Source: Carboxylicivirga caseinilyticus
GTDB taxonomy: Bacteria; Bacteroidota; Bacteroidia; Bacteroidales; Marinilabiliaceae
Length of the DNA: 64,000 bases
Assembly: GCA_025499705.1 (NCBI GenBank)
Contig: JAFMVE010000001.1
Location: 62,001 to 126,000 of the forward strand
Reading direction: 5' to 3'
In this document: positions 21,204 to 21,435 of the stretch, in pieces
Layout: every line of letters starts with the position of its first letter
Numbering within the stretch: position 1 is the stretch's first letter
Notes under the pieces: generated by a model
Told to the model about the DNA's origin: nothing
Seen by the model: only the letters and a program-made list of their open reading frames with translations
The model's database searches: none
Position numbers and translations under genes: made by a program

Positions 21204-21329
21204 ATGTCTTTATTTGCTTTGCATATGAAATTATTAAATAATCATATAGAAACTATCCGGATTGGTGAACTTACATCACCAATATGTGCTTCATGTACAA
21301 CAATGATGTGTATGATGATGACAATGTAA
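21204..21329 (+). CDS. Putative Met/Cys-rich leader peptide upstream of metY-hom
   Basis: A 41-codon frame from ATG 21204, or 34 codons from the in-frame ATG 21225, ending at TAA 21327. Its last 14 residues read CASCTTMMCMMMTM: six Met codons (21303, 21306, 21312, 21315, 21318, 21324) and three Cys codons (21285, 21294, 21309). It lies 106 bases in front of the gene that makes homocysteine from O-acetylhomoserine, so the codons match the pathway product and its sulfur donor. This is the form of an attenuation leader whose ribosome stalls when charged tRNA-Met or tRNA-Cys is scarce. Amino-acid leader peptides are known in Bacteroidota for tryptophan; I do not know of this one as described. Confidence 0.65.
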   Translation: MSLFALHMKLLNNHIETIRIGELTSPICASCTTMMCMMMTM

Positions 21330-21396
21330 TTGTCACAACGCATCGTATCTGAAAATCAAAAAAGACATACTAAACAGACCGGTGCGAAAGCTCCGG
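21261..21396 (+). promoter_or_regulatory. Leader RNA with competing hairpins before metY
   Basis: Four helices can be drawn. ATTGGTGA/TCACCAAT (21261-21268 with 21276-21283) lies before the Met run. GACAAT/ATTGTC (21320-21334) covers the leader stop codon. CCGGTGC-GAAA-GCTCCGG (21379-21396) has a GNRA loop and one U-U mismatch. CGCATCG (21339-21345) can pair over seven bases (one G-U) with CGGTGCG (21380-21386), which excludes the GNRA hairpin. A stalled ribosome at the Met codons would reach about 21340 and could decide between the last two. No U tract follows the GNRA hairpin, so a translational or Rho-dependent switch is more likely than an intrinsic terminator. Confidence 0.45.
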
Positions 21397-21435
21397 AAGT
21401 TAAACGTGGAATATTAACCATAAAAATTAAATACT

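Follow-up and report, generated by a model that had tools for sequence, protein, structure and literature searches.

How the methionine pathway is controlled in Carboxylicivirga caseinilyticus is the question raised by a short reading frame in front of metY. In bacteria, the regulation of methionine genes is usually ascribed to SAM or SAH riboswitches, T-boxes, and DNA-binding repressors, and ribosome-mediated transcription attenuation is known for the trp, his, leu, ilv, thr, and phe operons. Methionine regulation in Proteobacteria is treated in PMC4239095. A first-pass annotation of the stretch of DNA analysed here (64,000 nucleotides, hereafter the window) had proposed that the short frame is the leader of an attenuation system whose codon content matches both the product of the pathway and its sulfur source.

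The frame itself was borne out: the ORF at 21204-21329 is present as first read and ends in CASCTTMMCMMMTM, six Met and three Cys residues lie among its last 14, and 106 nt separate its stop codon from the metY start. In a census of short ORFs (10-80 aa, both strands, whole window), the leader was the only one of 1404 with at least eight Met or Cys residues per 14 (it has nine, the runner-up five), and no ORF of this density occurred in 60 dinucleotide-shuffled windows, where the maximum was seven. Across the organism's own genome, the exact Met-run pattern was found once, with five further matches at two mismatches, and model R2 identified one strong place (62.6 bits). A weak second match to R2 was observed in the same genome at L182 (C106:17385-17472, 21.7 bits, E 0.08).

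The start that had been assigned to the frame did not hold up as well as the frame, since the leader probably begins at ATG 21225 rather than at ATG 21204. A promoter-like TATTTG sits 4 nt downstream of ATG 21204, and a transcript from that promoter would therefore lack this codon; the ORF from ATG 21225 encodes 34 aa with the tail TTMMCMMMTM. The promoter consensus of Bacteroidota is TTTG/TAnnTTTG, and TATTTG or TAATTTG lies 5-20 nt 5′ of a leader ATG in 25 of the 29 family leaders that we compared (the exceptions are L022, L026, L027, and L102). A TTTG is found 21-22 nt further 5′ in 21 of these 25, and is not present in the window. We also observed a palindrome in the promoter region, flanked by the -33 and -7 elements, GGATAAAGTTATCC in L023 and AAGAGTAAATTCTCTT in L006, which is likewise seen in L020 and has a degenerate copy in the window (21195-21210); it could be a repressor site.

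Downstream of metY lies hom, and the two genes likely form one operon (Table 1). Among 30 family loci, hom was detected downstream of metY in 25, detection being confined to about 1.5 kb from metY, and a Met-rich leader was found in 24 of these 25 (L024 has hom and no leader) and in none of the five loci without hom. Directly 5′ of metY, a hairpin with the arms GGTTAA/TTAACC was noted in one Carboxylicivirga subclade (L006, L008-L014, and L017), with GTTAA/TTAAC as its form in the window (21399-21419); TTAACC(T)ATAAA before metY is conserved beyond that subclade. The hairpin was excluded from the RNA model. Elsewhere in the window, a minus-strand ORF at 26800-27243 resembles an Rrf2-family regulator by eye.

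Table 1 Features of the metY leader region and the downstream genes, numbered from the first nucleotide of the window
Feature	Position	Strand	Evidence
TATTTG, promoter-like -7 element, putative leader transcript	21211..21216	+	leader comparison
Leader ORF (probable start), 34 aa, MKLLNNHIETIRIGELTSPICASCTTMMCMMMTM, stop TAA 21327-21329	21225..21329	+	
Segment A, Met codons that make up one arm of helix A:B	21303..21311	+	duplex -11.7 kcal/mol; 11/300 shuffles as good
Candidate regulatory codon run ATG ATG TGT ATG ATG ATG ACA ATG (M M C M M M T M)	21303..21326	+	
Small hairpin TGACAA-TGTAA-TTGTCA around the leader stop codon	21319..21335	+	folding
Segment B, ACGCATCGTATCTGA, partner of A or C	21338..21352	+	
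Candidate anti-start element, complement of 21435-21448 at the metY start	21349..21369	+	-14.0 kcal/mol; 2/200 shuffles as good
Segment C, CAGACCGGTGCG, partner of B (CGCATC/GGTGCG, TCTG/CAGA)	21375..21386	+	
Hairpin C:D, CCGGTGCGAAAGCTCCGG, no U-tract after it in the window	21379..21396	+	folding
metY, O-acetylhomoserine aminocarboxypropyltransferase	21436..22731	+	TIGR01326, 682.5 bits, cut-off 495.1
hom, homoserine dehydrogenase	22885..24081	+	NF004976

Conservation of the Met run and its frame in relatives had been named in advance as a point on which the proposal could fail, and it survived this test. Among the 30 top-scoring metY loci, which all belong to the family by label, 24 carry a Met-rich leader, as does each of the 14 Carboxylicivirga genomes searched, including that of the window (L002-L014 and L017). 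Together with L102 and with L127, L132, L142, and L149, four loci taken from the DNA pattern search described below, these 24 make up the 29 leaders compared, and in all 29 the Met run and the reading frame are kept before metY, with four to eight Met among the last 16 codons. The run reads MMMCMMMT in 11 of the 14 Carboxylicivirga genomes, and variants such as MMMGRMSMA, MMDMMCMMTK, and MMMGMMCSMMMSC occur in other genera, while the residues upstream of it vary among leaders. Substitutions at codon positions 1, 2, and 3 number 420, 430, and 617, respectively, in 53 equal-length pairs that are not independent of one another. L022 and L102 have no ATG that yields a leader of at least 28 codons, and the leader peptide of L003 (congener G001) is identical to that of Carboxylicivirga linearis (L151).

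Only part of the earlier statement on codon content stands. Cys is found in 17 of the 29 tails, with Tyr, Trp, Gly, or Arg taking its place elsewhere, and on this conservation we rejected Cys as a family signal. As read from the aligned sequences, Met is the constant signal and Cys is not a conserved one.

The reach of our searches differed with the query. A 41-aa peptide query run on 71 family genomes reached three at E 0.001, the organism's own among them, a small reach that is explained by how little outside the Met run is conserved. Model R1 gave a single strong match 5′ of metY in many family genomes; its scan of 393 genomes of the order, which scored 12 candidates per genome and missed the window's own copy, gave one weak match (L087, 27.2 bits) and is uninformative on absence. 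A DNA pattern built from the B and C segments of the family and run on named genomes returned 34 stretches, 20 of which adjoin metY, and all 20 have a Met-rich leader, as may be read with the derivation of the pattern from this same family in mind. The names attached to 19 of the 20 are Carboxylicivirga, Marinilabilia, Anaerophaga, Thermophagus, Alkaliflexus, Saccharicrinis, or Marinilabiliaceae, and the remaining one is a Bacteroidales MAG. The other 14 stretches, from unrelated taxa (including a Bacteroides and a Prevotellaceae MAG) and with no adjoining metY, were dropped; several of them share similar, coding-looking sequence.

Downstream of the leader stop codon, the RNA contains segments that can pair in alternative ways. 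The gap from the stop codon to B is 8-11 nt in all 29 leaders (in the window, GCATC of segment B starts 10 nt past the stop codon), and B is followed by a loop of variable length and then by C and D. B and C are strongly conserved as RNA, and the loop between them varies in length and sequence. Across nine B:C pairs in 24 sequences, 91.7% of the 216 cells are paired, and both sides have changed in four of the nine pairs, in 19 such cells. None of 500 shuffles equalled these values, whether for paired cells, for both-side cells, or for the score, and controls in which the segments were slid against each other reached at most 42.9% paired. In 11 representatives, the B:C duplex was also stronger between a sequence's own segments than between swapped ones (-19.5 versus -15.2 kcal/mol).

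Evidence for helix A:B is of another kind. At most 20 of 300 shuffled A segments paired as well with B in each of the 11 representatives, but segments swapped between genera paired nearly as well as a sequence's own (-14.5 versus -16.0 kcal/mol). Covariation was therefore not upheld for A:B, and the helix rests on complementarity, which may simply follow from Met being encoded by ATG. For the C:D stretch, folding gave -7 kcal/mol or better in 24 of 29 leaders, and the stretch is weak in L016, L022, L026, L030, and L102; in L018, the fold at this stretch is a different hairpin. Around the leader stop codon, the arms of the small hairpin change jointly in congeners (TGACAC/GTGTCA), as noted by eye and without a count. 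The helices A:B, B:C, and C:D are mutually exclusive, which is the arrangement of a leader-peptide attenuator.

Given these features, we consider it quite probable that the leader is a ribosome-sensed, Met-responsive attenuator of the metY-hom operon that follows the logic of the trp type. A ribosome would load very close to the 5′ end of the transcript, on the short leader ORF. If charged Met-tRNA is ample, it would reach the stop codon, 10 nt before B, so that B would be covered or left free to pair with A; C would then be available for the C:D hairpin, and metY-hom would be off. Under a shortage of Met-tRNA, the ribosome would stall on the Met run and cover A, allowing B:C to form and block C:D, and metY-hom would be on. 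Use of the promoter, translation of the leader, stalling, and the direction of the response are steps that we infer. A leader that counts Met codons would read out charged tRNA and not SAM, and because Met also starts every protein, it offers a sharp test of how the supply of elongator Met-tRNA is told apart from that of initiator Met-tRNA. This double role also weighs against the attenuator, as methionine starvation should impair initiation on the leader too.

To place the family in a wider context, we scored 39 further Bacteroidota metY loci, 15 from one search and 24 added from the top 30 of another (which matched 96 of 148 genomes, so that with the best 30 used the sample leans to close relatives). 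A short ORF with at least six Met or Cys per 14 residues within 400 nt 5′ of metY was present at 15 of the 39 loci, and the same criterion applied to the opposite strand gave 0 of 39. By kinship label, a leader is present at 14 of the 22 same-class loci and at one of the 17 outside the class (L171). The SAM-I riboswitch (RF00162), which binds SAM and requires no ribosome, was matched at 16 of the 22 same-class loci and 16 of the 17 others, although in L113, L157, L165, L166, L172, and L178 its distance to metY is 595-819 nt, and there it may act on a different gene. In-class loci with SAM-I have a leader in 10 of 16 cases, always between the aptamer and metY, and those without SAM-I in four of six; L171 likewise has a leader and no SAM-I match. 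At L108, L109, L111, L115, L116, L119, L158, L161, L162, and L170, SAM-I is located 233-389 nt upstream of metY, and a Met/Cys-run leader ORF lies in between. Two-input control is possible at the loci that combine SAM-I with a leader.

Terminators at these more distant leaders are found in a minority. A strong canonical terminator between leader and metY (-14 kcal/mol or better, with none of 20 shuffles as good) was detected at five of 17 loci, namely L106, L117, L118, L121, and L171, all of which are without a SAM-I match. L108 and L115 have weaker candidates, and the other ten have none better than shuffles; that 12 of the 17 leader loci tested outside the family are without a strong canonical terminator is a point against the attenuator. 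At L106, two successive Met-run leader ORFs lie upstream of the metY-like gene, with a canonical terminator after each, and a tandem pair of Met/Cys-rich ORFs is present at L117, L118, and L121. On balance, we lean slightly toward a class of Met/Cys leader attenuators on homocysteine synthesis in Bacteroidia that works alongside SAM-I or replaces it, with SAM read by the RNA and charged Met- and Cys-tRNA by the translated leader, and with the leader remaining, sometimes in tandem, where the riboswitch is missing. The range seen in Bacteroidota, from SAM-I alone through SAM-I plus leader to leader alone and tandem leaders, is a natural series in which to follow how one regulatory input is joined to another or replaced by it.

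The claim of an attenuation system holds for its mutually exclusive helices and not for a terminator in the window, where we found no intrinsic terminator with a U-tract; because it is missing, the window falls outside the class of strict intrinsic-terminator attenuators. A T-rich stretch within 13 nt of C:D occurs in 16 of the 29 leaders and is absent from the window and 12 others. In the eight Marinilabilia-group sequences, C:D is followed at a distance of 7-10 nt by a run of 5-7 T, so that termination is plausible there. When hairpins reaching a T run were evaluated at 13 family loci, those of L023, L025, and L027 were unmatched by 20 shuffles and that of L030 was matched by one of 20, and the window has none. 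The output in the window may be termination or masking of the metY start, the leading alternative to termination there being that the B-C loop pairs with the start region of metY. Such translational attenuation, in which the leader ribosome sets whether the B-C loop masks the metY start with no premature termination, as in erm-type systems, is a possibility that we hold tentatively. It would suit the window, which has no terminator and whose loop pairs well with the metY start (Table 1), and at most 14 of 200 shuffles were as good in 18 of the 29 sequences. Within the Marinilabilia group (eight sequences), it is C with its 5′ flank, and not the loop, that complements the metY start, at -15.8 to -19.3 kcal/mol (0-5 of 200 shuffles as good). 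However, at least 20 of 200 shuffles did as well in the other 11 (L008-L012, L016, L022, L026, L027, L030, and L102), a sequence's own pairing gained little over swapped pairing (-12.9 versus -11.0 in 22 sequences), and metY codons 2-3 (TCTGAT) match TCAGA of C via the protein sequence alone. Folding with the ribosome at three positions also left the predicted accessibility of the metY start almost unchanged in most of the ten sequences folded.

Other explanations dispense with a ribosome that reads tRNA charging. The strong conservation of B and C, and the presence of SAM-I before metY in many Bacteroidota, would be consistent with a metabolite-binding, riboswitch-like RNA in which the Met codons are sequence that no ribosome reads; we regard this as quite unlikely, given that no Rfam match was obtained in the window or at 28 family loci, that the B-C loop is variable, that the gap from stop codon to B is fixed, and that the letters change while frame and Met runs stay (MMMCMMMT, MMMGRMSMA, and MMMGMMCSMMMSC). 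Nor do we think it likely that a Met-rich nascent peptide arrests the ribosome by sensing a small molecule in the exit tunnel, as the number of Met is kept while the run differs between genera and the upstream residues are variable, even though the presence of MMMCMMMT in 11 of 14 Carboxylicivirga genomes speaks for such a peptide. A functionless, low-complexity ATG repeat that arose by chance is hardly credible: ATG-rich stretches do occur elsewhere in the genome, as the five two-mismatch matches indicate, but this reading is contradicted by the conservation of the leader, the shuffled windows, the B:C covariation, and the opposite-strand control at the 39 loci.

Compared with known systems, the Met leader shares with the trp, his, leu, ilv, thr, and phe attenuators a leader ORF with codons for the pathway product near its stop, a stop codon close to segment 2, a segment 2 that pairs with 1 or 3, and a hairpin 3:4 downstream. 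It differs from them in that the amino acid is Met, which is also the initiator, in that the counterpart of hairpin 3:4 has no U-tract in the window, and in that its leader ORF apparently begins very close to the 5′ end. In erm-type translational attenuation, the position of the leader ribosome masks or frees the gene start, a decision shared with the translational alternative weighed above, whereas erm senses antibiotics and not an amino acid. In the window, none of 4227 Rfam families, T-box included, was matched at its gathering score. SAM-I precedes metY in many other Bacteroidota, whereas RF00162 had no match in the window or at 28 family loci (22 of them with a leader; L027 and L030 were left out).

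The accessible part of PMC1262725 describes Cys-codon leader ORFs before cys operons of Actinobacteria; it reports that terminator hairpins are not conserved and that methionine operons there are not preceded by RNA structures. Those leaders likewise place a run of Cys codons near the stop before sulfur genes and have no obvious terminator, but they belong to another phylum and to other genes, and here Met dominates and the alternative helices are conserved. Within the phylum, the available text of PMC9723704 gives strong clues for leader-peptide attenuation of amino-acid operons in Flavobacterium psychrophilum, which shares with our case the leader peptides before such operons; its main text does not contain the word "methionine", and its tables, which lie outside this check, may hold a Met case. 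Leader-like sORFs of B. thetaiotaomicron are mentioned in the consulted portion of PMC7366714, and the available text of PMC2965389 has no mention of bacteroid- or flavobacter-. Among titles and abstract openings, a literature from which subscription papers are mostly missing, no Met leader peptide in Bacteroidota was found. Leader-peptide attenuation as such is already known, and we provisionally regard a Met leader of this kind as apparently new.
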